Source: Methylopila sp. 73B
Lineage (GTDB): Bacteria; Pseudomonadota; Alphaproteobacteria; Rhizobiales; Methylopilaceae
Direction of reading: 5' to 3'
Assembly: GCF_000526315.1 (NCBI RefSeq)
Contig: NZ_JAFV01000001.1
Coordinates: forward strand, 3,784,501 to 3,848,500
Length of the DNA: 64,000 bases
Below, piece by piece: positions 6,217-22,806 of this stretch. The number at the start of each line of letters is the position of its first letter. Within the stretch, counting starts at the first letter, position 1. The translations under genes were made by a program, and so were the position numbers. The notes beneath the pieces were generated by a model, which made no database searches, was not told the DNA's origin, and saw only the letters and a list, made by a program, of their open reading frames with translations.

Positions 6217-6242
6217 CGCGTCAGCGTCATCTCGAACGCATC

Positions 6243-6778: not shown

Positions 6779-6804
6779 GCTAAACGCAGGCTTGACCTAA
6801 AACC

Positions 6805-6831: not shown

Positions 6832-6925
6832 TTGCTGTGTTACAGGACCGGCGCGTGACTTCGGCGGCGCGCCGCCCACATATCGTGCTGCGTCCCTGAG
6901 GCGCGTGGATGATTGCGGAGGGGCG

Positions 6926-7942: not shown

Positions 7943-7964
7943 CGGCCGACCGGAGCCTAAGGCG

Positions 7965-8480
7965 TCACGCCGCCGGGGCGAACAGTTCGCTCTGGGCGGC
8001 GGACCCGCGTTCGAGCGCCAGCAGGTAGGCCTTGGCGGCGAGCCCGCCTGCGAACCCCGTGAGCTTGCCGGTCGCTCCCACCACCCGATGGCATGGCGCG
8101 ACGATCGAGAGCGGATTGCGCCCGTTCGCGGCGCCCACCGCCCGCGACGCGTCGGGACGCCCGATCGCGGCCGCAAGCGCGCCGTAGCTGCGGGTCTCGC
8201 CGAAGGGGATCGCGAGCAGCGCCCGCCACACCTCCGTCTGGAACGGCGTGCCCTGAAGGTCGAGCTCGAGATCGAAGGTCCGCCGTTCGCCCCGGAAGTA
8301 CTCGTCGAGTTGCGCCTCCGCGCGGTCGAGGGTCGCTCGCGCGTCGCCCTCGGGCGCCGGCCCCAGCCGCACCCGGCGGGGATCGTCGTTCTCCCACAGC
8401 ACCGCCGCCAGCCCGCGGCCGCTTGCGACCAGCGTGAGGCGTCCGACCGGCGACGGCGTCTCCCTGCGCGCGTAATCCAT
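7965..8480 (-). CDS. ogt: Methylated-DNA--[protein]-cysteine S-methyltransferase
   Basis: The 171-residue product repairs O6-methylguanine by transferring the alkyl group to its own cysteine. The active-site motif PCHRV is at residues 129-133 (Cys130). It is preceded by the helix-turn-helix that inserts into the minor groove ([16 protein letters not shown]) with its Arg finger in [13 protein letters not shown]. The N-terminal domain is short and there is no AdaA-like zinc domain, so it is of the Ogt/AdaB type. ATG at 8480 starts a typical N-terminus ([13 protein letters not shown]); the longer open frame upstream is not supported. It is divergent from dadA. Confidence 0.93.
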
Positions 8481-8667
8481 GGGCTCGGCTCCCCGACCGC
8501 GTCGACGTCGTTCGACGTTCGCCACGAATCGGCCCCGAGGTCCAGCGGCTCTGCGCTCACGTCCGATCTGTCCTGCGCGGTCGCAATCCGGCGGACGCCG
8601 CTGCGCTTCTTGGGCTATGACGGTCTCGGCGGGCCGCCGACGGCGTCTCGACGGCAAGGGGGCGTTC

Positions 8668-9939: not shown

Positions 9940-10050
9940 CGTCCGCCCCCTGGCGGCCGCGCCGCGCCGCGACAGGTGTCCATCGATCAAGGCGAGCCCG
10001 CTCTGCGGGAGCGCCCGGTCTCAAAAAACTCCGACGCAAGGACGCACACC

Positions 10051-11508
10051 ATGCGCGACCAGATCCGCACCAGCCCCTTCTTCCGCGAAGCCCTCCTGAT
10101 CGACGGCGCCTGGACCCCGGCCGACGGCGGCGTGACGCTGCCCGTGCACGACCCTGCGACCGGCGACGAGATCGGAACAGTTCCCCACGCGGGCGCGCCT
10201 GAGACCACGCGGGCGATCGAGGCCGCGAACCGCGCCTTTCCGGCCTGGGCGGCGCGCACCGCGGCTCACCGCGCCGCGCTGCTGCAGGCGCTTGCGGCCG
10301 ACATCCGCGGCAACGCCGACGCCCTCGCCGCCATGCTGACGCTGGAGCAGGGCAAGCCGCTCGCCGAGGCCAAGGGCGAGATCATGATCGGCGCGGCCTA
10401 CGTGCAGTGGTTCGCGGAGGAGGCGCGCCGGGTCCGCGGCGACGTCATCCCGTCGCCCTGGCCGGACCGCAAACTCTTCGTGACGCGCGAGCCGGTGGGC
10501 GTCGTGGGGGCCATCACGCCCTGGAACTTCCCGTTCTCGATGCTGGCCCGAAAGCTCGGCGCGGCGCTCGCCGCCGGCTGCACGGTGGTTGCGAAGCCCT
10601 CCGAGTTCACGCCCTACAGCGGCCTCGCCTGGGGCGTGCTCGCGGAGCGCGCCGGGATCCCCGCCGGCGTGGTCAACCTCGTCACCGGAGACGCGCCGGC
10701 GATCGGGAAAGCGCTCACGGACCATCCCGACGTGCGCAAGATCACCTTCACCGGCTCCACCCGCGTCGGAAAGCTGCTGAGCGAGCAGGCGGCGAAGGGC
10801 GTGAAGCGCGTCTCGATGGAGCTCGGCGGAAACGCGCCGTTCCTGGTGTTCGCTGACGCCGACCTCGACAAGGCGGTGGAGGGCGCCGTCGCCGCCAAGT
10901 ACCGCAACAGCGGCCAGACCTGCGTCTGCACCAATCGCTTCTACGTCGAGGCCTCGATCCATGACGCCTTCGCCGAGCGGCTGGCCACGCGGGCGAAGAC
11001 CCTCGTCGTCGGCTCCGGCTTCACCGAGGGCGCGCTGCAGGGGCCGCTGATCAACGACGCCGCGCTCGCCAAGGTGGAGGCCCATGTGGCGGACGCGCTG
11101 GAGAAGGGCGGCCGTCTGCTCACGGGCGGCCGCCGCCATGCGCTTGGCGGCACCTTCTACGAGCCGACGGTGATTTCAGGCGGCCACGCCGGCATGACGG
11201 TGGCGCGCGACGAGACCTTTGGGCCGCTCGCGGTGTTGATCCCGTTCGAGACCGAGGCCGAGGCGATCTCCGCCGCCAACGCCACCGAGTACGGGCTCGC
11301 CGCCTACCTCTACACCCGCGACCTCGCCCGCGCGTTCCGGGTCTCCGGCGCGCTGAAGTACGGCATGGTCGGCGTCAACGACGGCGTCATCACCACCGAG
11401 GTCGCGCCGTTCGGCGGCGTCAAGGAAAGCGGCATGGGCCGCGAAGGCTCGCACTACGCCTTGGACGACTATCTCGACATGAAATACCTCAGCATCGGCG
11501 GGCTATGA
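10051..11508 (+). CDS. gabD: NAD(P)-dependent succinate-semialdehyde dehydrogenase
   Basis: The 485-residue aldehyde dehydrogenase oxidises succinate semialdehyde to succinate in GABA and related catabolism. It has the ALDH signature MELGGNAPFLVF (general base Glu257), the nucleophile in NSGQTCVCTNRF (Cys291), the cofactor-binding GAITPWNFPFSM and FTGSTRVGK, and a C-terminal GGVKESGMGREGS motif that is typical of GabD-type enzymes. The start at 10051 follows AAGGACG. Context downstream of dadA suggests amino-acid carbon flow to the TCA cycle. A role on glutarate semialdehyde is also possible for this subfamily. Confidence 0.93.
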   Translation: MRDQIRTSPFFREALLIDGAWTPADGGVTLPVHDPATGDEIGTVPHAGAPETTRAIEAANRAFPAWAARTAAHRAALLQALAADIRGNADALAAMLTLEQGKPLAEAKGEIMIGAAYVQWFAEEARRVRGDVIPSPWPDRKLFVTREPVGVVGAITPWNFPFSMLARKLGAALAAGCTVVAKPSEFTPYSGLAWGVLAERAGIPAGVVNLVTGDAPAIGKALTDHPDVRKITFTGSTRVGKLLSEQAAKGVKRVSMELGGNAPFLVFADADLDKAVEGAVAAKYRNSGQTCVCTNRFYVEASIHDAFAERLATRAKTLVVGSGFTEGALQGPLINDAALAKVEAHVADALEKGGRLLTGGRRHALGGTFYEPTVISGGHAGMTVARDETFGPLAVLIPFETEAEAISAANATEYGLAAYLYTRDLARAFRVSGALKYGMVGVNDGVITTEVAPFGGVKESGMGREGSHYALDDYLDMKYLSIGGL

Positions 11509-11555
11509 CGCGAGTTCGTTAGCCGGCGTAACACCTCTGGCGTCAGCGCGTCTTG

Positions 11556-11771
11556 TCAGTCGCCGCCGCGAATGTCCGCCCAGGCCTCTTGGACGAGGCT
11601 CGTTGCAGTGACGAAGGCGGCGGTGACGACCAGGACCAGCAAGCTGAGGGCGGCTGCGACGAGCCAAAGCGGCAGGACGATCGGCAGGCCGATCAAAAAC
11701 GCGAGCCGCTGCGGCTTCGGCCGCGTCAACGGGTTGGAGCACACGGTTTCCAGCGCGCTTCGCACGTCCAT
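11556..11771 (-). CDS. Small membrane protein of unknown function
   Basis: The 71-residue product has a basic N-terminal segment (about residues 15-22) followed by one long, or two closely spaced, hydrophobic segments (about 23-58, LAFLIGLPIVLPLWLVAAALSL and following) and a short acidic end. No family is recognised. The opposite-strand frames here encode polar, low-information products, so this hydrophobic frame is the best candidate. It lies just downstream of and convergent with gabD. Confidence 0.55.
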   Translation of the reverse strand: MDVRSALETVCSNPLTRPKPQRLAFLIGLPIVLPLWLVAAALSLLVLVVTAAFVTATSLVQEAWADIRGGD

Positions 11772-12056
11772 CGCTTCGTCCTCCCATGCGCGTGGCCCGC
11801 TTCCGACGCCTGAGACGGCGAAGGGCGAGACACTTTGTCATTTGCTTATATCGAGACGAAGGAGTGATGGGAACGCGCATCGCCCGTGCTGCACAACTTT
11901 TGAGACGAAAACCCCGTCAGCTCGATGTCGAAAGACGTACGTCGCCTCCGTGCTCCTCAGAATTGGGAGAAGCGCGCGAATTTATAGGTGATCTTGTCGG
12001 CCGTTGCTGGGGGGCGGAACTCTTCGCGCGCCTAGATCTCCAGCCGGTGCGATGAG

Positions 12057-12446
12057 ATGATGCGAAGGCTTGTCTTGGGCTGCGTCTTCGTTGCGGCGCT
12101 CGCCGCGGCGGCGCGGCCGGCCTCCGCCCAGACCTCGATGAAGCCGACGCGCAGCGTGGTGCTGCTCGTCAACCGCAACAGCGGCATGTGCGCCGAGATC
12201 CCCGCCGTCGGCGCGGGGGTGGGCTCCGCCACCGTGCAAAACCGCTGCCTGGACCTCAGCCGCCAGCAGTGGCGCTTCAAGGCGATCGCCGGGGCGTACC
12301 GGATCGTCAACGCGACGAGCGGCATGGAGCACAGCGCCGGCCTGTTCGTGATCGACGCGAACGGCCTCCTCGTCGACCGGATTGCCCCGAGCGCCCCGCC
12401 CGAGGCCATCGCCGCCCGCCTGCGGCGTTGGATCGAAGGGGGCTGA
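12057..12446 (+). CDS. Exported protein with a partial ricin-B-like segment
   Basis: The 129-residue product has a Sec signal peptide (LVLGCVFVAALAAAARPASA, cleavage after about residue 25). Residues 33-90 resemble one lobe of a ricin-type beta-trefoil: VLLVNRNSGMCAEIP, a CLDLSRQQWRF stretch with the QxW motif, and GAYRIVNATSGM. A full beta-trefoil needs three such lobes and only one to one-and-a-half are present. The tail (LFVIDANGLLVDRIAP then an amphipathic helix) instead looks like the last strand-helix unit of a thioredoxin-like domain. It may therefore be a rearranged gene. It is the last chromosomal gene before the integrated element. Confidence 0.6.
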   Translation: MMRRLVLGCVFVAALAAAARPASAQTSMKPTRSVVLLVNRNSGMCAEIPAVGAGVGSATVQNRCLDLSRQQWRFKAIAGAYRIVNATSGMEHSAGLFVIDANGLLVDRIAPSAPPEAIAARLRRWIEGG

Positions 12447-12543
12447 GGGAGAAGGCGCGGGGCGCGCACGAACAGCGTCCCACCTGGAAAACCAAGTGGT
12501 CCACTTCGCGCTAACACGCTGATTATATGGAAACTTTAGCGCG

Positions 12544-12591
12544 TGGCGCTCCCAAGGGGACTCGAACCCCTGTTTTCGCCGTGAGAGGGCG
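12544..12591. repeat. Left attachment repeat (tRNA-Glu 3' fragment)
   Basis: Identical to 22731-22778 over 48 bp. It contains the tRNA CCA end, acceptor 3' strand, T arm and the anticodon arm up to the 5' side of the anticodon stem. The sequence diverges immediately outside, so no functional tRNA is encoded here. Confidence 0.92.
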
Positions 12592-12612
12592 CAGTTCCGG
12601 GCTGCCCAGCTA

Positions 12613-12735
12613 CCCCCGCAAACCCCCGCAAACTCGCCAAAACCCAACAGTATCAGGGAATACACTAGGTTGCGGCGCGCGCACGTTGCCACTAGCCCGC
12701 GCACGTTTGCCCCGCTATATTAGGCTGGCATTAGG
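12613..12735. repeat. Left-end arm region with short direct repeats
   Basis: Inside the left repeat lie two adjacent CCCCCGCAAA copies (12613-12622, 12623-12632), two near-identical GCGCACGTTGCC/GCGCACGTTTGCC copies (about 12679-12690 and 12699-12711), and TATATTAGGCTGGCATTAGG (12716-12735). The last has a partner at 22656-22674 near the right end in the same orientation. These are plausible arm-type integrase or excisionase sites; this is inference from position and repetition. Confidence 0.5.
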
Positions 12736-12755
12736 TCGATAGCGAGGGCTGGGCA

Positions 12756-14057
12756 GTGGCCAGGACGGTTCGGGACGCGAAGATGGACACGCGGACGGCG
12801 CGGATGCGCCTTCCCGTGGGGGCGAAGCCGCAGTGGAAGACGCTGGTGCCGGGGAAGCTCCACCTCGGCTATCGCCGCCGCCGCGCCGACGCCCCCGGCA
12901 CCTGGATCGCCCGGCGCTACGTCGGGCTCGACGCGGGCGGGCAGGGTCGCTACGGCGAGACCACGCTGGGCCTCGCCGACGACTTCCGGGACGCCGACGG
13001 TGCTGAGGTGCTGAGCTACGCCGAGGCGCAGCGCGCGGCCCACGCGCTCGCCGCGGCCGGGCGCGAGGAGAAGAGCCGGTCGCTGACGGTGCGCGACGCG
13101 ACGGACGCCTACCTCGCCTTTCTTCGTGCGCAGAGGAAGTCGGCCGGGGACGCCGAGAGCCGCATCCGCACGCACATCCTGCCCGCGCTCGGCGCGCGCC
13201 GCGTCGACCAGCTCACCACGCCCGAGCTGGAGCGCTGGATGCACGCCATGGCCAAGGAGCCGGCGCGCATCCGGACGCGGCCGGGGGAGGAGCAGCGCTT
13301 TCGCGCGCCCCCGGCGGACGCCGACGCGCAGCGCGGCCGCCACGCCACGGTCAACCGCACCGTCACCGTGCTGAAGGCCGCGCTGAACCGCGCGCACGAG
13401 CACCGCCTCGTCGCCGACGACACCGCGTGGCGGCTGCTCAGGCCCTTCCGCGCGGCGGACGCGGCCCGGCCGGGCTTCCTCCCCGCAGACGAGGTCAGGC
13501 GCTTCCTCGAAGCCGCCGACGAGCCCTCCGGCTTCCGCCGGCTGGCGACGGCGGCGCTCCTGACGGGCTGCCGCTACGGCGAGCTCTGCGCGCTGCGCGT
13601 CGGCGACTACGCCCGCGGCCAGATCGCCATCCGCGACAGCAAGTCCGGCAGGCCGCGCGTCGTCCGCCTGAGCGACGAGGGGCGGGCGTTCTTCGCCGGG
13701 CTGGCCGAGGGCCGGGGGGGCGACGAGCCCATGCTGACCCGCGCGGACGGCGAGGCCTGGGGGCCGTCGCACCAGATAAGGCCGACGGCGGCGGCCTGCG
13801 CGAGAGCGGGGCTGAGGCCAATCAACTTCCATGCGCTGCGCCACACGTGGGCGTCGCTGTCGATCATGTCCGGGATGCCGCTGCTGGTCGTGGCCGGCAA
13901 CCTCGGCCACACCGACACGCGCATGGTGGAGAAGCACTACGGCCACCTCGCCGAGAGCTACGTCGACGAGGAAATCCGCCGTCACGCGCCGCGCCTCGGC
14001 CTCGCCGGCGGGGCCGCGGTGATCTCGCTGGACGAGCGGCGGAGCGGCGCGGCGTGA
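12756..14057 (+). CDS. int: Tyrosine-type site-specific integrase
   Basis: The 433-residue phage-type tyrosine recombinase catalyses integration and excision at the tRNA-Glu site. The catalytic set is visible: Arg273 in TGCRYGEL, Lys about 296 in the following beta-hairpin, His359 and Arg362 in HALRHTW, His385 in GNLGHTDTRM, and nucleophile Tyr395 in EKHYGHL. Residues about 110-170 form the core-binding SAM-like domain. An N-terminal arm-binding domain occupies about 30-95. It starts with GTG, 164 bp inside the left att repeat, with a repeated arm motif just upstream. The stop overlaps the next gene's GTG by four bases. Confidence 0.95.
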   Translation: MARTVRDAKMDTRTARMRLPVGAKPQWKTLVPGKLHLGYRRRRADAPGTWIARRYVGLDAGGQGRYGETTLGLADDFRDADGAEVLSYAEAQRAAHALAAAGREEKSRSLTVRDATDAYLAFLRAQRKSAGDAESRIRTHILPALGARRVDQLTTPELERWMHAMAKEPARIRTRPGEEQRFRAPPADADAQRGRHATVNRTVTVLKAALNRAHEHRLVADDTAWRLLRPFRAADAARPGFLPADEVRRFLEAADEPSGFRRLATAALLTGCRYGELCALRVGDYARGQIAIRDSKSGRPRVVRLSDEGRAFFAGLAEGRGGDEPMLTRADGEAWGPSHQIRPTAAACARAGLRPINFHALRHTWASLSIMSGMPLLVVAGNLGHTDTRMVEKHYGHLAESYVDEEIRRHAPRLGLAGGAAVISLDERRSGAA

Positions 14058-14620
14058 CCCGCCCCCCGAGCTTCGCCAAGGCCTCCGACGAGGAACTTGC
14101 CGAGTTCGTGCGCGAGCGCGTCGAGCTGTGGGCATGGCCGCAGGAGCCACTGAGGATGGCCGAGAAGAACGCTCTCGGCGACGCGATGCTCAGTAGCGGC
14201 AAGGCGGGAGAGCGCTGGACGGCGGTCGCCGCTGCGCTGGCGAACGCCGACTGCTCGCCAGGGTTCAGGCGCGCGGTGGCCGACCTCATTCTGGCCAACG
14301 CATTTCACCCCCGGACCCGGTTTGTAGCCGCGGCGCGCGATCAAGTGATCATGGCGAGCAACTATCGCGAGGTCTACGAGTGTCTGAGGATCGCGTATCC
14401 CGAGCAGACGACCCCCCTGATCTACAGGCGGGCGGAAGTGGTGACGGCCATGCTCACAACGTTCGACCCGCCCGAGGAGGTGGGCGGCATGTCGGTTGTG
14501 GTGGCGGGGGAGGCCACGCCGGACGAGGTGACTTGCGCGCGGCTGAAGTTCGACGACGACCGCAGCTTGCGAGTCGCAAGACTGTTCATAAGGCTGAACG
14601 ACGCGCCGTTTATCGACTGA
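14054..14620 (+). CDS. Unknown protein translationally coupled to the integrase
   Basis: The 188-residue product starts at a GTG that overlaps the integrase stop (GTGA). It begins with an acidic helical stretch (SDEELAEFVRERVELWAWP), followed by predicted helices with AAALANADCSPGFRRAVADLI, and a C-terminal alpha/beta part ending LFIRLNDAPFID. There is no signal peptide, membrane segment or metal motif. I recognise no family. Coupling to int suggests a role in integration control or early element functions, but this is only context. Confidence 0.7.
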   Translation: MTRPPSFAKASDEELAEFVRERVELWAWPQEPLRMAEKNALGDAMLSSGKAGERWTAVAAALANADCSPGFRRAVADLILANAFHPRTRFVAAARDQVIMASNYREVYECLRIAYPEQTTPLIYRRAEVVTAMLTTFDPPEEVGGMSVVVAGEATPDEVTCARLKFDDDRSLRVARLFIRLNDAPFID

Positions 14621-14643
14621 GTAAATTTAACGCCGCCTACTAC

Positions 14644-14657
14644 CGCGTTTAAACGCG
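14644..14657. promoter_or_regulatory. 14-bp perfect palindrome upstream of the regulator gene
   Basis: CGCGTTTAAACGCG is a perfect palindrome in an AT-richer gap, four bases upstream of a sigma-70-like -35 element. This is a good position for an operator controlling the AlpA-to-primase gene string. Confidence 0.5.
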
Positions 14658-14661
14658 TCAA

Positions 14662-14690
14662 TTTACGCACAAACGGCTGCCGCCTATACT
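14662..14690 (+). promoter_or_regulatory. Sigma-70-like promoter of the AlpA-like gene
   Basis: TTTACG (14662-14667) and TATACT (14685-14690) are separated by exactly 17 bases. Transcription would start near 14697 and run into the SD (14713-14717) of the AlpA-like gene. Confidence 0.6.
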
Positions 14691-14723
14691 TGGACCAACG
14701 TGGCAAAAGCACGGAGGTCGCAG

Positions 14724-15107
14724 GTGCCAGTTACAGACAGTATCGTAGTAGCAAGCAACGATGGCGCGAAGGTCGCCGACAGCGTAGTTCGGATGCGCGC
14801 ATCGGGCGCGCCGGTCAAGCCTAAGGGGGTCGCTGTACTGCCCAAGGACCCGCGGCAGGCGCTGACGGTACCCCAGTTCTGCACGGCGGTCGGCATCTCG
14901 CGCTGCGGCTACTACAAGCTGAAGGCGCAGGGCCTCGGCCCGCGCGAGATGCGGCTGGGCGCGTCGGTGCGCATCAGCCCCGAGGCGCTGCTCGACTGGC
15001 AGCGCGAGCGCGAGAGCCCGACCGGGGCCGAGGCCGAGGCCCGGCTCCAGAACGAGAAGCGGGCGCGGGAGCGGGCGCGCCGCGCCGTCGCGGCGGTGGC
15101 GCGATGA
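14724..15107 (+). CDS. AlpA/excisionase-like helix-turn-helix protein
   Basis: The 127-residue product has a central MerR/AlpA-type winged-helix segment at about residues 47-85: LTVPQFCTAVGISRCGYYKL, then a wing with GPREMRLGASVRISPEALLDW. The C-terminal 35 residues are a highly charged Arg/Glu helix. Such proteins in satellites and integrative elements act as excisionase or as activators of excision and replication genes. The frame is open from GTG 14700, but GGAGG at 14713-14717 sits six bases before GTG 14724, so the later start is favoured. The TGA overlaps the next ATG (ATGA). Confidence 0.7.
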   Translation: MPVTDSIVVASNDGAKVADSVVRMRASGAPVKPKGVAVLPKDPRQALTVPQFCTAVGISRCGYYKLKAQGLGPREMRLGASVRISPEALLDWQRERESPTGAEAEARLQNEKRARERARRAVAAVAR

Positions 15108-15367
15108 GGCCCCGGGACAGGAGGTCGGGCGCGCCGGCCCCTCGGCTGATCAGCACCAGCGTGGGTCAGGACGACCTGATCCGCCTGCTGGCGACCCGGA
15201 ACCCGCATCGGAGGGGAACCCCGGCCCACGACCGCCATCGGCGGATCACCAGCGGCATGCGGGTGAGGGACTACGTGGCGCTTTCGCCGGTCCGGCGCGA
15301 CGCGCTGGCCGAGCTGGTCGTCGCGCAGCGGATGGGCGTGATCGGCTTCGAGAGAGCGGCCCGATGA
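15104..15367 (+). CDS. Tandem paralogue 1 of a small unknown family
   Basis: The 87-residue basic protein is coupled to the AlpA-like gene by an ATGA overlap and to the next gene by another. After a variable N-terminus, it shares with the next two genes a core of about 65 residues: (Q)DDLI at about 21, NPH near 33, a spaced AH..H motif, (G)MRVRDYVAL, A.AEL, and a final G-V-I-G-F. The conserved Asn-Pro-His and paired histidines are invariant in all three copies and could form a metal or active site. No known domain is recognised, and there is no signal peptide or membrane helix. Confidence 0.7.
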   Translation: MRPRDRRSGAPAPRLISTSVGQDDLIRLLATRNPHRRGTPAHDRHRRITSGMRVRDYVALSPVRRDALAELVVAQRMGVIGFERAAR

Positions 15368-15624
15368 CCCGGCCGATGCGCGAGCACGACCAGGCCCAGC
15401 TGCTGACCAGCGGGGTCCGTCAGGACGACATCATCGTGCTGCGGAGCCGCGACAACCCGCATCCCGAGTGGACCAAGGCCCACGGCCACCACGACCGGCT
15501 GCGGACGGGCATGCGCGTGAGCGACTACGTCGCGCTCTGCCCAGACAGGACCACGGCCCTCGCGGAGCTGGCGTTCGCCCATCGCCGGGGGATCGTCGGG
15601 TTCGTTGCGGGGCCGTCGCGATGA
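15364..15624 (+). CDS. Tandem paralogue 2 of a small unknown family
   Basis: The 86-residue member of the three-gene tandem set begins with the ATG of an ATGA overlap. It shares QDDIIVL, DNPHPEWTKAH, a following H, GMRVSDYVAL, LAEL and GIVGF with its neighbours. It is closest to paralogue 1 in the C-terminal half and to paralogue 3 in having Pro after NPH and a P-D after the DYVAL motif. The divergence between copies at protein level, with the motif kept, suggests that each is functional rather than a recent duplication. Confidence 0.7.
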   Translation: MTRPMREHDQAQLLTSGVRQDDIIVLRSRDNPHPEWTKAHGHHDRLRTGMRVSDYVALCPDRTTALAELAFAHRRGIVGFVAGPSR

Positions 15625-15884
15625 GCGGCGCGGACGAGGCCGAGCCGGCGGACGTGATCCTGCCGACGGGCGACCCGCGGCTGATGGACGTCATCGTCCT
15701 GACGAGCCTGGCCAACCCGCATCCGCCCTACACCGCGGCGCACGCGCGCCACGAGAGCCTGCGGGTCGTGACCAGCGTGCACGAGTACGTGGCGCTGGCC
15801 CCCGACCCCGACACGGCGATGGACGAGCTGACCGTCGCCTACCAGCGGCACCTCATCAACTTCGGATGGGCGACGCGGCACTGA
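15621..15884 (+). CDS. Tandem paralogue 3 of a small unknown family
   Basis: The 87-residue third copy begins at the ATGA overlap (15621). It keeps LMDVIVL, ANPHPPYTAAHARH, VHEYVAL (Glu for Asp), AMDELTVAY and a terminal INFGWATRH where the others end in GF. Its N-terminus is more acidic than those of the other two. It ends 14 bp before a strong hairpin, after which the primase gene begins. Function is unknown; the set may form a hetero-oligomer given strict coupling. Confidence 0.7.
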   Translation: MSGADEAEPADVILPTGDPRLMDVIVLTSLANPHPPYTAAHARHESLRVVTSVHEYVALAPDPDTAMDELTVAYQRHLINFGWATRH

Positions 15885-15897
15885 TCCAAGAAGTACC

Positions 15898-15930
15898 CTC
15901 CGGCCCGCTGCAGAGGAAAGCGGGCCGGAG
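15898..15930 (+). terminator. Strong hairpin between the paralogue string and the primase gene
   Basis: CTCCGGCCCGCT and AGCGGGCCGGAG form a perfect 12-bp stem with a nine-base loop. No T-tract follows, so it may slow transcription, stabilise an mRNA end or be a protein site rather than an intrinsic terminator. Confidence 0.45.
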
Positions 15931-16011
15931 AGGCTTCCCATCCGCCGCCAGCCAGGCGCGGGAGGATCATCAGCGTACTTGGTCACGGCACACCTAGAAG
16001 GGTAGTATAGC

Positions 16012-17772
16012 GTGGAAGACATGGCACGTAAAGCCGCGGCGGACGACTGCGCGACCGCGGAGAACTACACTGAATCTACTTCGAACGCCAGTGCACCTCG
16101 CGCTGCGGACCCCCCGGCACCTGCGGACGCGCCCGAGACGCCCGAGGCGCGGCTCCTCGCGCTGTTCCGGGGGGCCGAGACGCATCACGGCACGTACGAC
16201 GCCGCGGCCGTCGCGGCGCAGGAGCCGGCCGCCGGGGCGAAGGTCGAGATCAAGGACGTCGGCGGCGGCGTGCGGACGCTCAAGGAGCCGCCGACCGCGG
16301 AGATGTGGCGTCGTCACCTCGCCGGCGAGCGCCCGCTCGGCGTCAGCCCCGTCAGGGCGGACGGCACGGCGAGCTGGGGCGCGATCGACGTCGACAAGTA
16401 CGACGGCGACGCCGCCGAGCGCCTGAGGGGCCTTGCCGCCCGCGCGGCCGAGATGCGGCTGCCGCTGATCGTCTGCCGGTCGAAGTCGGGCGGCGCGCAC
16501 CTCTACCTCTTTCTGACGGAGCCGGTGTCCGCGGAAAAGGTTCAGGCGGCGCTTCGCGGATGCCTGCGGTCCCTTGGCCTCCTGGACGACACGGAGATCT
16601 TCCCCAAGAAGGCCGAGCCGAACCGGAGCGGCTGGATCAACATGCCGTACTTCCGCTCCGGGCCGGAGGGCGACGCCGGCGACCGGTTCGCGCTCAAGCC
16701 CGACGGGCTCGAGATGACCGTGCACGAGTTCGCCGACGCGGCGGAGCGCGGGGCCGTGGCGCCGTCCGCGCTGGCGGCCCTCGCAGCCTCGTCGGCGCCC
16801 TCGGGGCGGCGGGCCTCGGCGGCGGCGTCCGGCGGCGGCGGAGGGGCCGGCGCGCCCGCGCAGGCGGAGGGCGCGGCCCATGCGGCGGCCGAGCTGAAGC
16901 GGCTTGCCGCGGAGCTTCGCGCCACGGCGGAGGGCGGCCGCAACGAGCGGCTCAACAGGGCCGGCTTCGCCATGGGGCCGATGGTTGCGGCCGGGTGGGT
17001 GGACCGGGGCTCCGTCTTGAACGCGCTCTCCGACGCCGCCCGCTCGGCGGGGATGGACTTTGACGAGATCGGCAGCACCCTGAATCGCGCCATCGACGAC
17101 GGCGCGGCGCGCGGTGCAGTGCCCGAGATCGGCGGCCTGCGCGTCGAGCGGGTCGTGTTCGTCGAGGGGGGCCGGGAGAAGCTCTGCGAGCTCACGCTGG
17201 CGCACGGCGATCTGCGCGGCGAGGTCAGCCTGCTCGCCACGCATGCCGTCTACTACAACCGGGTCAAGGAGCAGACCTACAGCCAGCTCGGCTGGGTTCC
17301 GCCGCCACAGAAGGCCGCCGAGTGGGAGCGGCTTCTGAGCGAGGCTTCTCGCGGGGCGGAGGTGCGGCAGGTCGAATCGGACAGCTCGGTGAGCGGTCTC
17401 GTGATGTACGACCTCTGCGAGTTTCTGAGGTCGCGCGGCAAGGCCGACAACAAGGAGGAGATCCTCTTGAAGAAGCCCTGGTACGACGACGTGGAGGGCA
17501 TGCACTACTTCCGCATGGTCGATCTCGCCGAGTTCCTGGAGAAGAAGTCGCGTCCGGAGTACCGCGGACTGACCCAGGTCGATCTGTCGAAGCATCTGAG
17601 GGCGGCGTGCGGGGGGGTCTCGCCCGGCGGTGGCGAGTCCAGGACCAAGAACCTTGGCAGCAAGGGTGGGGTGGTTCGAGTGCGCCGGGTGGCCGAGGCG
17701 GCTCTGGCGCCACGGGAGCTGGCGGAGGGCGAGGAGATCCCGCTGCCGCCCATCGCAACCTATCCGCTCTGA
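16012..17772 (+). CDS. Archaeo-eukaryotic-type primase (TOTE-like) without helicase domain
   Basis: The 586-residue product likely primes element replication. The AEP catalytic core lies at about residues 45-215: metal motif I in AIDVDKYDGD (Asp126, Asp128), motif II in SKSGGAHLYLF (Ser157, His163), and motif III around EIFPKK (about 195-200). This arrangement resembles the primase domain of TOTE systems. After an Ala/Gly-rich linker (255-290), residues 305-365 carry a PriCT-like segment (GRNERLNRAGFAMG, then STLNRAIDDG) usual in phage and satellite primases. The last 150 residues look like a winged-helix part. No Walker A is present, so a helicase must come from elsewhere. The start is GTG 16012; ATG 16021 is an alternative. 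Confidence 0.75.
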   Translation: MEDMARKAAADDCATAENYTESTSNASAPRAADPPAPADAPETPEARLLALFRGAETHHGTYDAAAVAAQEPAAGAKVEIKDVGGGVRTLKEPPTAEMWRRHLAGERPLGVSPVRADGTASWGAIDVDKYDGDAAERLRGLAARAAEMRLPLIVCRSKSGGAHLYLFLTEPVSAEKVQAALRGCLRSLGLLDDTEIFPKKAEPNRSGWINMPYFRSGPEGDAGDRFALKPDGLEMTVHEFADAAERGAVAPSALAALAASSAPSGRRASAAASGGGGGAGAPAQAEGAAHAAAELKRLAAELRATAEGGRNERLNRAGFAMGPMVAAGWVDRGSVLNALSDAARSAGMDFDEIGSTLNRAIDDGAARGAVPEIGGLRVERVVFVEGGREKLCELTLAHGDLRGEVSLLATHAVYYNRVKEQTYSQLGWVPPPQKAAEWERLLSEASRGAEVRQVESDSSVSGLVMYDLCEFLRSRGKADNKEEILLKKPWYDDVEGMHYFRMVDLAEFLEKKSRPEYRGLTQVDLSKHLRAACGGVSPGGGESRTKNLGSKGGVVRVRRVAEAALAPRELAEGEEIPLPPIATYPL

Positions 17773-17777
17773 GTCGC

Positions 17778-18021
17778 GATAACGCCGGGGGCTTAATGGC
17801 GGCGTTACGTAACGCCTGCGCAGCGTTATCGGCAGTACGCCGGGGTTGCCTACCGGGGTTTAGGTAACGCTCCCCGTCGGAAAGTAACGCGCTCGCTTTC
17901 CGCGAGCGTTACCGCAGAAAGCCTCGGTTCCCAGCGTATAAACGTATGCGGTAACGCTGTAACGTCGAAACGCCTCGCGCGGCGCGCGCGTATGTATGCA
18001 GGGGTGAGGGTAGCGTAACGG
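17778..18021. repeat. Iteron array, putative origin of replication of the element
   Basis: Directly after the primase stop there are nine to ten copies of GTAACGC or close variants on both strands within 245 bp: 17778-17786 (GATAACGCC), 17802-17808 and 17809-17815 (forming the palindrome GGCGTTACGTAACGCC, 17801-17816), 17823-17830 (GCGTTATC), 17864-17870, 17884-17890, 17906-17912, 17951-17957, 17959-17965 (GTAACGT) and 18015-18021 (GTAACGG). The copies at 17884 and 17906 form a long inverted repeat. No gene fits here. Iterons beside a primase gene are the usual layout of satellite and phage origins. Confidence 0.65.
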
Positions 18022-18079
18022 GCGGCCCCCGGCAGATTAGCTTCATCGGACCAGTCTCAAACATAGCAAAGGCATCAGC

Positions 18080-18451
18080 ATGGCCAGAATAACACCACCC
18101 CCCGGCACCAATCGCCTGCCGACGATCGAGGTGCGCGGCATGGAGCGTGGGCCCGACGGCGACGTGCTCAGCGTGGCGGTCAAGAGCGAGGAGCAGCGCG
18201 AGACAGGTACCGGGCCGGTGTCGCGGGCCGAGTTCCGCGGCACCATGAGGATCCGATTGGACGCTGCGCGAGACGAGAACAGGTTCGTGCGCGCGGTGAA
18301 GCATGTTCTCGGCTACTGGCCGGCTACACCCCGGCCCAACAAATGGGGCGAGCATGTCGCCCGCGGAGTGACGCAGTGCGAGGCCAGCGGTCGCGTCACA
18401 TTCACCACCAAGGCTCGCCCCGCCGACGACGCCTGGCCCGACCCCGTTTAG
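18080..18451 (+). CDS. Unknown small protein downstream of the origin candidate
   Basis: The 123-residue product starts with an ATG after the iteron array. It is basic, has no hydrophobic segment, and contains a beta-rich middle (DVLSVAVKSEEQ, FRGTMRIRLDAARDENRFVRAVKHVLGYWP) and a Pro/Lys-rich C-terminal third. No family is recognised. It may act in replication or packaging, as suggested by position only. A longer open frame on the opposite strand is Arg/Ala-rich and lacks any family feature. Confidence 0.5.
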   Translation: MARITPPPGTNRLPTIEVRGMERGPDGDVLSVAVKSEEQRETGTGPVSRAEFRGTMRIRLDAARDENRFVRAVKHVLGYWPATPRPNKWGEHVARGVTQCEASGRVTFTTKARPADDAWPDPV

Positions 18452-19017
18452 AGCTGGTTCTCCGTCGCCCGCCGCGGACCCTGGGACGCCGCCTGAGCCC
18501 CTCGCCGCGCCGGCCTCGGCCGCCCTAGCCGCCGCGCGCCGCCAAGGCTCCTGCGTCCCGCCAGCGACGCGCGTCCGGGCTCGGGCGACTGCGGCAAAAG
18601 AACAGCCGAGGTCCGCGCCACCTTTTCCCGACGCGACGGCGCGGCCGGGCCGCGTCGCCCGACCCCGGCGCGCCATCACGTTTTGTCCGCAAAGCGTCGG
18701 TGGCCCCGGCCCGACCCTCGGCGGATTTTTTGCGCAGAGACCGTCCGACCCTCGGCCGGCCGCGACCGCGTCGTCGCATCCGGGGCGAGCGCTCGCCCGC
18801 GAGGCCCCGGGCGCCGCGATCGCCCGAGGGGCAGGGGTCCGCCGACCACATCGGGCCATGCCCGAGCCCGACTCCCCACGGCCGTCGCAGGCGGCGACTG
18901 CGCCGTATCAGGGCGCAAACTCCAAACCCGGAGCAACTCGGAAAAACCTGCTGGCAGCTATACTTAAGCCGCGCCCGACGCTATACTTAGCCGGCTCAAC
19001 CTAATAAGCGCACAAAT
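18452..19017. other. 566-bp GC-rich gap before terS: no gene seen; repeats and candidate packaging region
   Basis: No convincing coding frame is present. Features: the 12-mer CCGACCCTCGGC at 18711-18722 and 18745-18756, with a third copy at 19463-19474 just after the TerS-like gene; a T6 run at 18725-18730; and two copies of GCTATACTTA (18957-18966, 18980-18989), 23 bp apart, just before terS. TATACT inside the second would place a start site about 23 nt before the terS ATG, but no good -35 is visible, suggesting activator dependence. Phage cos or pac sites often lie next to terS. Confidence 0.5.
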
Positions 19018-19452
19018 ATGGCCCCCGCATACCCCTCTGAAGGCCGGCCGGCGTCGGGCTTTCGCCCGCTTGGCGGCCGAACGCAGCGGACCCGCGTCAC
19101 GAACGGCACGGCGACCATCCCCGGCGTCGACGGGCGGACGCTCTGGGCGCGCCGCCTTCGCGACCTGCTCGCGATCTACGCCTCCGACCTCGGCGGCGCG
19201 GAGAACATGACCGAGGCCGAGAAGTCTCTGGTGCGCCGGGCCGCGACCCTGTCCGTGGAGCTGGAGCTGCTGGAGCAGCGCTTCGCCGCCAGCGGCAAGG
19301 GTGCCAGCGCGCCGGACCTCGACCTCTACGGCCGCATGACCAACACGCTGCGGCGGCTTCTGGAGTGCACCGGGCTGGAGCGCCGCGCCCGCGACGTCAC
19401 GCCGTCGCTCGCCCAGTACCTCGACCTGACGCGGGGGGCCGACGACCGGTGA
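19018..19452 (+). CDS. Putative terminase small subunit
   Basis: The 144-residue, mostly helical product has GRTLWARRLRDLLAIYASDLGG, then AEKSLVRRAATLSVELE, a Ser/Gly linker and DLYGRMTNTLRRLLECTGLERR. Proteins of this plan occur immediately upstream of large-terminase genes in alphaproteobacterial prophages and are thought to be DNA-recognising small subunits. The N-terminal 40 residues are basic and probably contact DNA. Identification rests on the helical layout and on terL lying 128 bp downstream, not on a catalytic motif. No clear SD precedes the ATG. Confidence 0.6.
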   Translation: MAPAYPSEGRPASGFRPLGGRTQRTRVTNGTATIPGVDGRTLWARRLRDLLAIYASDLGGAENMTEAEKSLVRRAATLSVELELLEQRFAASGKGASAPDLDLYGRMTNTLRRLLECTGLERRARDVTPSLAQYLDLTRGADDR

Positions 19453-19580
19453 CGTAGGACGACCGACCCTCGGCCTCTCAGGGGTGGTCAAAAGTCGCCC
19501 GAGGGCCGCGGCGGATCGGATCCCGTTTTCGCACGGCGCGCACCCCGTCAGGTCTTTTCGCTTAATCGCGCGGAGCCGCA

Positions 19581-21116
19581 ATGAACACGACAGTGACCAT
19601 CCGCCGGGCCATGGAGGACCCCAACCTGCTCGGCGCGACGCTCGCCGGGCCGAGCTGGGCCACGTGGCGGATGCTGCTCGCCGCGGCCATGGGCGAGCGC
19701 CTCCGCGACGACGAGACGGAGAGCTTCCGCGCGCTGACCGGACGGTCCGCACCCCCGGCCCGCGCCGCCGACGAGGTGGTCGTCGTGGCCGGCCGGCGAG
19801 CCGGGAAGACGCGCGCCATGGCGGCGCTGGCGGTCTACCTCGCCGGGATGCGCGACTACACCTCGCGGCTGGCGCGTGGCGAGCGCGCCGTGGTGCTGAT
19901 CATCGCGCCCGACACGCGGCAGGCGCGCGTGCTGCTCGACTACGCCGTCGGCATGCTGGAGGCGACGCCGGTGCTGGCCCAGCTGGTAGCCGAGAAGACG
20001 GCCGACACCCTCTCGCTGACGACCGGGATCGACATCAAGGTGCGCGCCGCCAGCTTCCGCCGACTGCGCGGACTGACCGCGGTCGCCATCCTCGCCGACG
20101 AGGCGTGCTTCTGGAGCACCGAGGAGGACGGGGCCAACCCGGACTCGGAGATCCTGAACGCGGTGCGCCCAATGCTGGCGACGACCGGCGGCCCGCTGGT
20201 GATCATCTCGTCGCCCTACGCGCGGCGCGGCGAGGTCTACGAGATGTGGCGCGCCCACCACGGCGACGCTGGCGACCCGGCCATCCTCGTGGCGCAGGGC
20301 GCGAGCCGCGACTTCAACCCGAGCCTGCCCGAGGCCGTAGTCCGCCGCGCGATGGAGCGCGACCCGGCGGCGGCGCGCGCCGAGTACCTCGGCCTCTGGC
20401 GCGACGACGTGGAGACCTTCGTCGCGAGGGAGGCCGTGGAGGCCTGCGTCGAGGCCGGGCGACGCGAGCGCTCGCCGCGCCCCGGCATCACCTACCTCGG
20501 CTTCGTGGACCCGTCCGGCGGCGGCCAGGACAGCATGACGCTCGCCGTCGCCCACCACGACGGCGGCCGGCTCGTGCTCGACGCGGTGAGGGAGGCCCGC
20601 CCGCCGTTCTCGCCGGAGAGCGTTGTGGCCGACTTCGCCGGCCTGCTGGCGCAGTACCGCGTGCGGCGCATCGTGGGCGACCGCTACGCGGGCGAGTGGC
20701 CACGAGAGGCGTTCCGGCGCCACGGCGTGACCTACGACACGTCCGAGAGGACCAAGTCGGACATCTACCGCGACCTGCTCCCCCGGCTGAACTCGGGCGA
20801 CGTGGCGCTGCTCGACGACGACCGGCTCAAGAATCAGCTCTCGGGACTGGAGCGGCGCGTCGCCCGCGGCGGCCGAGACACCATCGACCACGGCCCCGGC
20901 GGCCACGACGACCTCGCCAACGCGGCGGCCGGCGCGCTGATGCTCGCGAGCGACGCGGTGCGCCGGCACGAGGTCCTGTGGGGCGGCGTCGGCGCGACCG
21001 GCGGCCTCAGCCTCAGGTCGCTGAACAAGAAGCGTGCGTGGCACCGCGGGCCGGGGGTGTCCGCCGTCGACGGCGGGCCGACGCCCGCCCGATGCCCCGA
21101 CCCGAAGCACCACTGA
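19581..21116 (+). CDS. Phage terminase large subunit
   Basis: The 511-residue packaging motor has both activities. ATPase: Walker A AGRRAGKT at 70-77, Walker B VAILADEACFW (Asp173, Glu174) and the coupling motif VIISSP near 208-212. RNase-H-like nuclease: Asp310 in FVDPSGGGQDS, Asp367 in VGDRYAGEW and the last metal site in GGHDDLANAAAG (Asp443/Asp444). All catalytic positions appear intact, so this is not a decayed remnant. In a full phage the portal gene would follow; here it does not. The protein could package element DNA into helper-phage heads, or compete with the helper's motor. Confidence 0.88.
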   Translation: MNTTVTIRRAMEDPNLLGATLAGPSWATWRMLLAAAMGERLRDDETESFRALTGRSAPPARAADEVVVVAGRRAGKTRAMAALAVYLAGMRDYTSRLARGERAVVLIIAPDTRQARVLLDYAVGMLEATPVLAQLVAEKTADTLSLTTGIDIKVRAASFRRLRGLTAVAILADEACFWSTEEDGANPDSEILNAVRPMLATTGGPLVIISSPYARRGEVYEMWRAHHGDAGDPAILVAQGASRDFNPSLPEAVVRRAMERDPAAARAEYLGLWRDDVETFVAREAVEACVEAGRRERSPRPGITYLGFVDPSGGGQDSMTLAVAHHDGGRLVLDAVREARPPFSPESVVADFAGLLAQYRVRRIVGDRYAGEWPREAFRRHGVTYDTSERTKSDIYRDLLPRLNSGDVALLDDDRLKNQLSGLERRVARGGRDTIDHGPGGHDDLANAAAGALMLASDAVRRHEVLWGGVGATGGLSLRSLNKKRAWHRGPGVSAVDGGPTPARCPDPKHH

Positions 21117-21137
21117 GCCCTAGCAAGGAGACCAGCC

Positions 21138-21860
21138 ATGAGCACTGTGCCGAACCTTAAGAGCCCGAGCCCGAGCCTGCACGAGGGCATGATCGAGCGC
21201 CACGCTGCCCGCGACAACGGCGGCCGGCCGCTGCTCGACGCCGACCCGGCGCTCGCCGCGCTGCGCGACGCCATGGCCCGCGGGCGCGCCGCCGCCGAGA
21301 AGGCCCGGCGCGTGGCCGAGGCCATGCTGCGGAACGAGATGGAGACGGTCCCGGCGCGTCATCGGCGCCTTCGCGACGAGAGCCACAAGCTCTCGCAGGC
21401 CGTGCTGCCGCTTTTCGACCGCGCGCTGGCCGAGGCCCGGCGCACGCTGGACGACATCGAGCGGCGCACCGGCCGCCCGCCTGCGCCGACCGGCGCGGCC
21501 GAGGTCGCGCTCGCGGGCGAGATCAGGGCGCGGCTGGCGTCGATGCCCCCGGAGAAGCGGCGCGCCGCCCTGAGGCAGGCGCTGGACGCCGGCGACGACA
21601 CCCTGCACGCCGCGGCGCTGCACGGCCCGGCGATGCTGACGGGGATGGAGCCCGCGGAGCTGGAGGTGCTGCGCGCGACGTGGCGCGAGGCGCGGCACGG
21701 GGCCGAGATGGAGCGGGCGCGCCGCCTGAGCGCGGCGGTCGCGGACGCCGAGCGGGGTGGGTCGCTGCTGATGACCTACACGGCTGGGCTGGCGAACGAC
21801 CGCATCATCGCGGAGGCGGAGAGGGCCGAGCGCGCGGTGCTGGAGGCGATCGCCGGTTAG
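21138..21860 (+). CDS. Alpha-helical protein of unknown function downstream of terL
   Basis: The 240-residue product is preceded by a strong SD (AAGGAGACCAGCC). It is almost entirely helical and charged, rich in Ala, Arg and Glu, with long heptad-like stretches (residues about 35-115 and 165-240) around a centre with RLASMPPEKRRAALRQALDAGDD. There is no cysteine, signal or membrane segment. In the portal position it could be a scaffold-like, head-size or helper-interaction protein, but no family is recognised and this is only inference from place and fold type. Confidence 0.65.
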   Translation: MSTVPNLKSPSPSLHEGMIERHAARDNGGRPLLDADPALAALRDAMARGRAAAEKARRVAEAMLRNEMETVPARHRRLRDESHKLSQAVLPLFDRALAEARRTLDDIERRTGRPPAPTGAAEVALAGEIRARLASMPPEKRRAALRQALDAGDDTLHAAALHGPAMLTGMEPAELEVLRATWREARHGAEMERARRLSAAVADAERGGSLLMTYTAGLANDRIIAEAERAERAVLEAIAG

Positions 21861-21983
21861 CTCGCTTCCGCGAGGCGAATGTTAGGAACTGTTGACACAG
21901 CTCCGCATCGCGCCGCGACTTGCCCCAAGTGTCTCACGGAAAGCGTATGCTGCGCGTGACAAAACTTGGTGGGCGAATCGTCG

Positions 21984-22616
21984 ATGCAGGAAATGATCCG
22001 GGCAGTGGTTGTCTCGCTCGTCCCAGCTGGGGCCGCCGCCCTGCTGGCTTCGCTACTTGGAGTTTTCGGGCCCAGCGAGCCGGCGGCATACATCAACTGG
22101 CAGAGCGTCAGCTTCACCAACGCATACATTCAATCTTTGGACTACAAGCCAGGGACATATGCTGATGCGCGCATAGTCGGGACACGCGTGGCCGTAAACG
22201 TGGAGATCAGAAACGATACATCGGTGAGGCTCAAAGATGTGCAGTTGATGGCCAGCAACAAGATCGAGAGCGCGGTAATACTTGGTAAGTATCCATCCGA
22301 AGGCCAAGAGCTTAAGAGGGAGGACGAGAGGATAGACCTTCCCGATGTTCAGCCAAAATCGCGGATGGAGATTGGTCTGATTTTGAGGGCATCTGGAGGA
22401 GAGTTGCCGGTCCAGGTCTTATCGGAAGGGCGCCAGATCGATTTGCGCTCGACTCGGATCAATTTGGACAGCTTCGGCTTCAAGAGCGCGGCTCTCAACC
22501 GGCCATGGGTTGAAATAGCGATTGTTTCGGGCATCGGGATTTTTGGGTTCTTTAGTTTGGCATTTGGCCTGCCTATTGCGGTCAGCATGCTGCGCAAGGC
22601 GTTCTCAGCGCCGTGA
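21984..22616 (+). CDS. Membrane protein at the element's right end, AT-richer than its surroundings
   Basis: The 210-residue product has an N-terminal membrane helix (about residues 5-27), an extracytoplasmic or cytoplasmic beta-rich domain (about 35-165, with VAVNVEIRNDTSVRLKDV, resembling an immunoglobulin-like fold) and a C-terminal helix (about 178-203). Base composition is visibly lower in GC than neighbours (29 of 60 bases are G or C at 22201-22260), a sign of separate origin. TTG 21966 and GTG 21969 are other possible starts. This end position in satellites commonly carries accessory genes such as defence or superinfection exclusion; the function here is unknown. Confidence 0.65.
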   Translation: MQEMIRAVVVSLVPAGAAALLASLLGVFGPSEPAAYINWQSVSFTNAYIQSLDYKPGTYADARIVGTRVAVNVEIRNDTSVRLKDVQLMASNKIESAVILGKYPSEGQELKREDERIDLPDVQPKSRMEIGLILRASGGELPVQVLSEGRQIDLRSTRINLDSFGFKSAALNRPWVEIAIVSGIGIFGFFSLAFGLPIAVSMLRKAFSAP

Positions 22617-22655
22617 CCGAACAAGCAGATGCCCCGTGGCGTAGAGCGCGAGGCA

Positions 22656-22674
22656 TATTAGGCTGGTTTTAGGC
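22656..22674. repeat. Right-end arm motif
   Basis: ATATTAGGCTGGTTTTAGG matches 12717-12735 (ATATTAGGCTGGCATTAGG) in 17 of 19 positions and the same orientation. It lies 57 bp inside the right att repeat. It is a candidate arm-type site for the integrase or its directionality factor. Confidence 0.5.
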
Positions 22675-22730
22675 CAAGCCCGGCGGCGCGGAAGGGTCCC
22701 CGGCTAAGTGCCTGCGAAACCTAGGTAATT

Positions 22731-22778
22731 TGGCGCTCCCAAGGGGACTCGAACCCCTGTTTTCGCCGTGAGAGGGCG
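22731..22778. repeat. Right attachment repeat inside tRNA-Glu
   Basis: The 48-bp copy is identical to 12544-12591. Because the complete tRNA lies here, this end preserves the functional gene and the left copy is the displaced 3' end. Confidence 0.92.
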
Positions 22779-22806
22779 ACGTCCTAGACCGCTAGACGAT
22801 GGGAGC
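22734..22806 (-). tRNA. tRNA-Glu (anticodon CTC)
   Basis: The minus strand folds as a complete cloverleaf: acceptor GCTCCCA with TGGGAGC, discriminator G and encoded CCA at 22731-22733. The anticodon loop is CTCTCAC with CTC at 22770-22772, and the T arm has GGTTCGAGTCC. The gene serves as the integration site of the adjacent element, whose int and att repeat lie on its 3' side. Confidence 0.95.

Follow-up and report, generated by a model that had tools for sequence, protein, structure and literature searches.

A tRNA-Glu-seated element of Methylopila sp. 73B with a TerS-like gene, a complete TerL and no recognised portal is probably a PICI-like satellite

The window analysed here, a stretch of 64,000 nucleotides from Methylopila sp. 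73B, contains a chromosomal element of 10.2 kb that is seated in a tRNA-Glu gene, is bounded by exact 48-bp direct repeats and carries 12 genes, all on the + strand. The features of the element, in window coordinates, are:

12544-12591, no strand: left attachment repeat, 48 bp, a partial tRNA-Glu copy identical to 22731-22778
12756-14057, +: tyrosine integrase (int), 433 aa (PF00589, 3e-17; phrog_1, 9.5e-54)
14054-14620, +: orf2, 188 aa, start overlapping the int stop, no family over the cut-off in Pfam or PHROGs
14700-15107, +: AlpA-like HTH regulator, 135 aa, weak match (PF12728 (HTH_17), 0.003; phrog_66, excisionase/regulator, 0.0016)
15104-15884, +: three small overlapping genes, s1-s3 (87, 86 and 87 aa), paralogous by alignment
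16012-17772, +: AEP-type primase, 586 aa (PF22548, 1.3e-10; phrog_21866, 7.4e-39; PDB 7nqf, 4e-4)
17773-18080, no strand: iteron array GTAACG/CGTTAC, holding 8 of the 11 such hexamers of the window
18080-18451, +: orf8, 123 aa, an ORF with no family match in Pfam or PHROGs
18452-19017, no strand: 566-bp stretch before terS in which our own gene caller called no gene
19018-19452, +: TerS-like protein, 144 aa (family in 102 of 156 related loci and 42 of 42 repeat-bounded elements)
19581-21116, +: TerL, 511 aa (PF03237, 8.9e-8; phrog_2, 9.5e-30)
21138-21860, +: orf11, 240 aa, conserved protein directly after terL, predicted all-helical (family in 16 of 42 repeat-bounded elements)
21984-22616, +: orf12, 210 aa, possible membrane protein (hydrophobic ends by eye) and cargo
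22731-22806, -: intact tRNA-Glu(CTC), whose 3' part, 22731-22778, is the right attachment repeat (repeat and tRNA searches; empty site in congener G013)

In 11 control stretches of 21 kb taken from the window, the longest background repeats spanning the midpoint were of 15-16 bp; none of these stretches held both 48-bp copies, and the first overlaps the left part of the element. The 48-bp repeat is not due to chance, since the controls reach 15-16 bp at most. Congener G013 has an empty site at which the joined flanks align across the junction (88% over 826 bp). The first-pass annotation had described perfect direct repeats of a tRNA-Glu 3' end around a satellite-like element with all genes on one strand, and this observation is confirmed; the element is mobile and satellite-like, with a complete terminase and no recognisable head.

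In single-protein family scans, eight products were compared with both Pfam and PHROGs; for s1 and s3 the comparison was with Pfam, and for s2 and orf12 with PHROGs. None of the 12 products matched a portal, capsid, tail or lysis family in these scans. No identity was obtained for orf2, orf8, the small paralogs (the sole members of cluster c112) or orf12, for which PHROGs gave nothing better than E 0.38; orf12 was also included in a Pfam scan of mid-size downstream proteins, the results of which are family counts only. In relatives, int is often followed by an ORF of about 200 aa. The AlpA-like protein belongs to cluster c6 (20 proteins). The iteron array is likely to be the replication origin, and in relative G015 a stretch of about 100 bp behind the primase gene contains 10 copies of the iteron hexamer. 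The stretch before terS is a candidate location for the packaging site and late promoter; comparison of the window with G015 by eye gave no clear conserved cos or pac block upstream of terS. The integrase, primase and iteron array proposed earlier, as well as the lack of any recognised capsid, portal, tail or lysis gene, were upheld by these results, whereas the AlpA-like assignment, from the PF12728 and phrog_66 matches, is tentative, the former falling short of the Pfam cut-off.

Alignment of six TerL proteins, including that of the window, showed that residues G71, G75, K76, D173, E174, D310, D367 and D444 are invariant, in agreement with the earlier description of a TerL with intact motifs; the ATPase and nuclease motifs are intact in the window, and a regular expression search found the motifs in 92 to 100 of 100 terS-linked TerLs. 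terL is under purifying selection, with dN/dS values of 0.045-0.159 in nine close pairs; constraint is weaker in the pair formed by the window and L023 (dN/dS 0.37, dS 0.94). The terL of relative G247 is split into two pieces, which indicates that some copies decay. The TerS-like protein has no convincing family match in Pfam or PHROGs, and the first PDB fold match of its model (pLDDT 78.5) is the HK97 small terminase 8pop, at an E value (0.32; probability 0.80) that is not significant. The designation TerS-like, also that of the earlier proposal, is supported by position and by conservation beside terL, with weak backing from the fold.

Relatives were gathered using a TerL alignment in genome and viral contigs, a single-protein TerL search being unproductive, with the best 80 of 193 relatives retained in one search. 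The window and 155 fetched loci make up a set of 156, some members of which are near-identical and hence not independent (for example L097/L115, L098/L117, and L132 to L135 with L137); L023 is the G015 contig and L043 the G258 contig. Genes were called using our own crude gene caller, not taken from annotation, and no terL was called in L126. Within flanks of at most 10 kb, some contigs being short, the TerS family was found in 102 of the 156 loci and a portal-profile match in 42, and the two were never found together (0/156). The three portal profiles used missed the portal of congener G007 (phrog_21), which is of another portal type; a phmmer search with the G007 portal gave no match in any locus.

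A repeat search of the window and 103 of the 155 fetched loci flagged 45 elements, of which 42 were kept; L027 (15-bp repeat) and L109 and L110 (terminal repeats) were left out. The 42 repeat-bounded elements, of 8.5-18.3 kb, all have terL and terS, 41 have the integrase cluster and 39 are located at tRNA genes, and a portal was detected in none. Eight are defined by repeats of 15-19 bp, close to the 15-16 bp background, all eight overlapping a tRNA, and in L025, L045 and L080 the repeats measure 27-34 bp and no tRNA was called. L109 and L110 carry terminal repeats of 60 and 114 bp, possibly an assembly artefact in metagenome contigs, and are circularly permuted relative to each other. Related elements occur in many genera, with terS-bearing loci in records of Hyphomicrobiales, other Proteobacteria, Nitrospira and Acidobacteria, many of them MAGs in which binning errors are possible. 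In a TerL tree with weakly supported deep branches, the terS-bearing loci lie mostly in large clades of their own, an arrangement that does not favour the intermediate between PICI and cf-PICI proposed in the first-pass annotation; 17 of the 28 tagged portal loci lie in the main portal clade and 11 elsewhere, with portal locus L172 inside a terS clade.

The same annotation had reasoned that homologues sitting always inside complete prophages with head genes would mark the segment as a deletion remnant. This condition fails, as no portal was detected in any of the 102 terS loci within flanks of at most 10 kb. That TerL is a phage gene whose family is shared with portal-bearing contigs, that L172 falls among satellites in the tree and that terL is broken in G247 are all consistent with descent by deletion from a prophage, but the exact attachment repeats and the same core in 42 bounded elements make this reading extremely improbable, and it was rejected on the empty site in the congener, the mutual exclusion of terS and detected portals across the 156 loci, and purifying selection on terL. 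Judged by these comparisons, the element is not a prophage remnant. At the level of gene content, the terS-terL pair is shown to be kept in loci without a detected portal, with purifying selection measured on terL.

The model of orf11 (pLDDT 94.5) gave no fold match at E ≤ 0.001, including in a viral library, and none of its best 50 PDB matches was named Sid. In relatives L061 and L090 the slot directly after terL, which orf11 occupies in the window, holds a major capsid protein (MCP) homologue, suggesting that orf11 probably alters helper heads or fits TerL to a foreign portal, and it may be regarded as a candidate capsid-redirecting or portal-adaptor protein. An MCP homologue was found in 3 and a head protease in 5 of the 42 bounded elements, several relatives carry tape-measure or other tail genes, and head and neck genes after terL were also found; the earlier description of a capsid-less element is accurate for the present element and does not extend to the family. 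The downstream proteins scanned in the 42 elements were 40 of at least 340 aa and 118 plus-strand proteins of 130-339 aa, and no portal was among the Pfam families listed for them (25 of 32 and 16 of 16, respectively); the PHROGs families considered were the best 25 of 158 and 25 of 84. Cluster c3 was dropped as a tape measure, as PHROGs identified it as a portal.

These head genes beside the same terS-terL pair, together with the TerL-portal-protease set that congener G007 has beside the same tRNA-Glu, would also fit a very reduced cf-PICI in which orf11, orf12 or both encode head or portal proteins that escaped recognition. However, HK97-fold capsid proteins are not all-helical as orf11 is predicted to be, 240 aa is a small size for a portal protein, and the viral-library search was negative, so that this reading is improbable. 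Less probable again is that the element is plasmid-like or integrative and moves by another route, its terminase having a different task such as the cleavage of replication concatemers: TerL homologues are present on seven plasmid records, but in relatives terL is followed by tail, head and neck genes, which links the module to virions.

Helper candidates exist, as the host genome has seven PF04860 portal matches, one of them partial. At E ≤ 0.001 the element TerL matched only itself in the host and no helper was singled out; that no other host terminase matches it is a point against the satellite reading, which offers no account of how TerL would fit a helper portal. The element of congener G007 has TerL, portal and head/protease genes by PHROGs.

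The reading to which we give a probability of about two in three is that the element is a PICI-like satellite equipped with a TerS-TerL motor of its own, and that it would use the portal and, here, the whole particle of a helper. Upon helper induction, AlpA would switch the element on, Int would excise it from the tRNA-Glu site and the primase would replicate it from the iterons into concatemers. TerS would then select element DNA over helper DNA, and TerL would dock on helper procapsids at their portal, filling them with element DNA, with head, tail and lysis provided by the helper and orf11 probably modifying helper heads or adapting TerL to the foreign portal. Alternatively, the main role of terminase and orf11 may be to block helper packaging, as a host defence, by occupying the portals or heads of the helper, self-transfer being rare or secondary. 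PICIs interfere with their helpers (PMC6092414), a headless terminase would be expected to compete for portals, and orf11 has no known fold; nevertheless, intact nuclease residues, TerS, iterons, primase and integrase exceed the needs of blocking, and both the occurrence of related elements in many genera and the circular permutation of contigs point to transfer, making interference as the main role unlikely.

Beyond the window, the balance tips slightly towards a distinct, widespread satellite family with an int-alpA-rep-terS-terL core and no portal, whose members would combine their own motor with a helper portal and virion parts after terL. That these parts are interchangeable (the helical protein of the window, a capsid homologue, protease, tape measure, baseplate hub or neck/fibre protein) seems marginally the better supposition. 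If so, family members would remodel the particles of their helpers one component at a time, and the tape measure in relatives would set tail length. No description of a portal-less satellite family with its own TerS-TerL was found in the literature searched, outside which key papers lie. The terS-bearing loci are spread widely across taxa, yet none of 50,697 phage records matches the window TerS. TerL-portal matching is usually held to be tight, and a motor without a portal implies that TerL must act on a portal absent from its own genome, so natural pairs would make this matching testable. In relatives the slot after terL holds capsid, protease or tape-measure genes; this slot would show which virion parts a parasite must own.

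PICIs usually contribute no more than a terS and are packaged by the helper TerL, a common trait and no formal exclusion, and the present element differs in having a complete TerL. As far as the available parts of the sources go, described satellites are of two sorts: those that redirect helper packaging, some of them with a terS of their own, and those that encode motor, portal and head as a set. Like PICIs as described in part of PMC6092414, the element has a specific attachment site with its own integrase at one end, a weakly matched, putative AlpA-like regulator, and a primase and origin (the origin being read from the iterons alone); that text gives terS and capsid homologues, each present in some PICIs, as the encapsidation genes of PICIs of Gram-negative bacteria (e.g. 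EcCICFT073) and does not name terL there, whereas the full terS-terL pair is constant in the present family. cf-PICIs, which in the excerpts of PMC10690885 and PMC13230959 encode TerS, TerL, portal, protease, MCP, connectors and HNH, resemble it in small size and in having their own TerL and TerS (assigned here by position and conservation), but apart from the terminase none of these cf-PICI genes was recognised in the element, nor was a portal detected in the 42 bounded elements. The 16.8-kb Pseudomonas satellite AH14b, packaged in resident-prophage heads, shares integrase, AlpA (here a weak match) and primase, but its authors found no terminase in it, according to the portion of PMC4936722 available. 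P4-like satellites likewise share integrase, AlpA-like regulator (here a weak match) and primase and a lack of head and tail genes; they are characterised by Sid/psu-type genes and by use of a helper terminase. P4 encodes Sid, looked for here via the orf11 fold search, and it is the P2 terminase that packages P4 DNA, at cos (PMC10690885, in part), whereas the present element has its own TerL. The Streptomyces satellites Mulch and Flayer also have their own small and large terminase, but with portal, MCP and scaffold, none recognised here, and with no known primase in the same partial source (PMC10690885), in contrast to the present element. PICMI is similarly minimal and without capsid-remodelling genes, but the words 'terminase' and 'TerL' do not occur in the main text of PMC10803314.

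Two exactly matching 48-bp direct repeats bound the segment at 12544-22778, and the right-hand copy forms the 3′ part of an intact tRNA-Glu gene; the host genome is 4.38 Mb on two contigs. The congener G013 has an empty site, where the window flanks, joined by script, align through the junction (88% over 826 bp). The repeats and the empty site together indicate an inserted mobile element rather than a local duplication, validating the first-pass annotation of an element in tRNA-Glu between perfect 48-bp repeats. In the congeners G013 and G007, the left flank gene (12057-12446) aligns to two regions separated by about 2 kb, and the window version therefore appears internally shortened.

The tRNA-Glu site of the congeners is a hotspot. 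Beside the same tRNA-Glu, G007 (L211, G007:C2:441000-458000, 2738-12796) carries a gene set that looks like a cf-PICI: its TerL belongs to a different family (phrog_15), and it also includes a portal (phrog_21), a head/protease gene (phrog_4523) and a primase. This portal was missed by three local portal profiles and found by PHROGs, showing that the PHROGs search is able to detect a portal. The G009 site (L214/L215, G009:C1:3214500-3237500) holds an element of about 21 kb with a satellite-type integrase (73% identical to that of the TerL-bearing locus L048), an AlpA-like gene, a helicase and a tape measure, and G014 holds a third kind of element; neither has a match to the TerL or TerS of the window.

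All genes of the window element lie on the plus strand, in the order integrase, 188-aa ORF, AlpA-like HTH protein (a weak match), three small paralogs, AEP primase, iterons, 123-aa ORF, TerS-like protein, TerL, orf11 (240 aa) and orf12 (210 aa). The paralogs (15104-15884) overlap in tandem, are 86-87 aa each, and have no cluster partner among the clustered proteins of the other 155 loci. Of the 11 copies of the iteron word GTAACG/CGTTAC in the 64-kb window, eight lie within 308 bp after the primase. In G015, the nearest element-bearing relative and of the same genus as the host, the corresponding position has 10 copies of the word within about 100 bp, following a primase with 35% identity to that of the window over the matched part.

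The reading of TerL as carrying intact motifs was borne out, as residues at the ATPase and nuclease motifs are retained in the window and invariant in the five relatives aligned. A TerL profile search of the PDB gave only T4 gp17 (E 0.19) and the 6z6d large terminase (E 0.32) up to E 1, neither significant. The gene is evidently under constraint in this lineage, with dN/dS of 0.045-0.159 in nine close pairs and 0.37 for the distant pair of the window and G015 (L023). G247 (L021/L022, G247:C6:1730550-1732763) has a decaying copy: its terL is split into two fragments that lie apart from each other, flanked by 50-bp tRNA-Gln repeats.

TerL matches (E<=0.001, own genome included) were found in 2/18 genomes of the host's family and 8/347 of its order, two of the latter weak, and TerS profile matches in 7/385 genomes of its class (own included, one weak). 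A profile of six TerLs gave 193 confirmed relatives in named genomes, of which the best 80 were kept, and 75 in IMG/VR; the groups named in record titles include Hyphomicrobiales, other Alpha-, Gamma- and Deltaproteobacteria, Nitrospira, Acidobacteria and Binatia. A search of 50,697 phage records gave six distant TerL matches (25.6-33.5% identity) and no TerS match at E<=0.01. Seven plasmid records matched TerL; Komagataeibacter nataicola plasmids NZ_CP019881.1 and NZ_CP134887.1 (25.8 and 30.5 kb) encode a TerL 42.5% identical to that of the window, so that some members of the lineage may be plasmid-borne.

The 156 loci compared comprise the window and 155 fetched loci, some of which are near-identical to one another. 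With portals scored by the three local profiles, the TerS family was present in 102, a portal in 42, neither in 12 and both in none. Homologues lying always inside complete prophages, which would have pointed to a deletion remnant, were thus not the pattern found. In the TerL tree (FastTree, 144 rows; deep branches weakly supported), 17 of the 28 portal-tagged rows group in a single clade that also includes four untagged ones, and 11 lie elsewhere. The TerL of one portal-bearing IMG/VR contig (L172, 10001-11356) sits within a clade of terS-bearing loci, a possible case of motor exchange between phage and satellite.

From 104 loci examined, 42 repeat-bounded elements of 8.5-18.3 kb were obtained, 39 of which sit at a tRNA gene. 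Every one has both terS and terL; the integrase cluster is present in 41 and the orf11 family in 16. The element had been called capsid-less, which holds for the window element but not for the whole lineage: a portal was detected by the local profiles in 0/42 bounded elements, an MCP homologue in 3/42 and a head protease in 5/42. Among the Pfam families listed (25 of 32 for the large proteins), none was a portal when the downstream proteins of the bounded elements (40 large, 118 mid-size) were scanned; the PHROGs families listed for the same proteins include tape-measure, capsid, protease and neck families. A lysis family was the best match of no protein in the PHROGs tables listed for relatives, endolysin-labelled families being just lower matches of tail proteins.

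The slot directly after terL varies. It holds orf11 in the window, G015 and two bounded elements (L055, L074), with at most one more called gene inside the repeats in the window, L055 and L074, and a capsid homologue in L061 (by protein cluster) and L090 (phrog_10, 3.6e-64). Protease and capsid are present in L038 and L086, tape-measure proteins in L024, L032, L046, L060, L091 and L099, and a baseplate hub in L049. In G114 and G138 a tape-measure protein follows terL, G114 also having a tail chaperone, neck protein and fibre protein in an element of uncertain ends. Ten large proteins of relatives, tested singly, gave five tape measures, one tail-fibre protein and four without a match at 1e-7. 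The orf11 model is all-helical (pLDDT 94.5), with no significant fold match in the structure search, and any role for orf11 is a guess from its position.

In the mechanism we propose, a helper would trigger induction of the element, which would excise and replicate to concatemers; TerS would select the element's own DNA, TerL would dock on the helper portal, and helper heads would be filled with element DNA, tails and lysis being supplied by the helper. Two related IMG/VR elements, L109 (9.3 kb) and L110 (9.7 kb), show circular permutation and terminal repeats, suggesting that the samples contained circular or concatemeric molecules, barring an assembly effect. The host genome has seven portal matches, one partial, placing helper candidates at hand, and a single TerL of the element's family, so that the motor is not one copied from a resident phage.

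On the sequence evidence, the window element is genuine: it is inserted and satellite-like, and belongs to a lineage that is large and coherent. The excerpts of a review (PMC11389934) and of reports on PICMI (PMC10803314) and Pseudomonas islands (PMC12595487) mention no satellite that has a terminase but lacks a head. A literature search by title and abstract start returned no family with its own terminase and no head, though one may already be described in the original papers on cf-PICIs, VEIMEs, tycheposons or SatelliteFinder. No description of the lineage was found in the literature searched. AH14b is given an integrase, AlpA and primase and no terminase (PMC4936722), and cf-PICIs a capsid protein, protease, portal, connectors, both terminases and HNH (PMC10690885, PMC13230959), a definition outside which the window element falls. 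In PMC6092414, some PICIs are reported to carry terS and some a capsid homologue; the window element would work in a PICI-like manner with an added motor.
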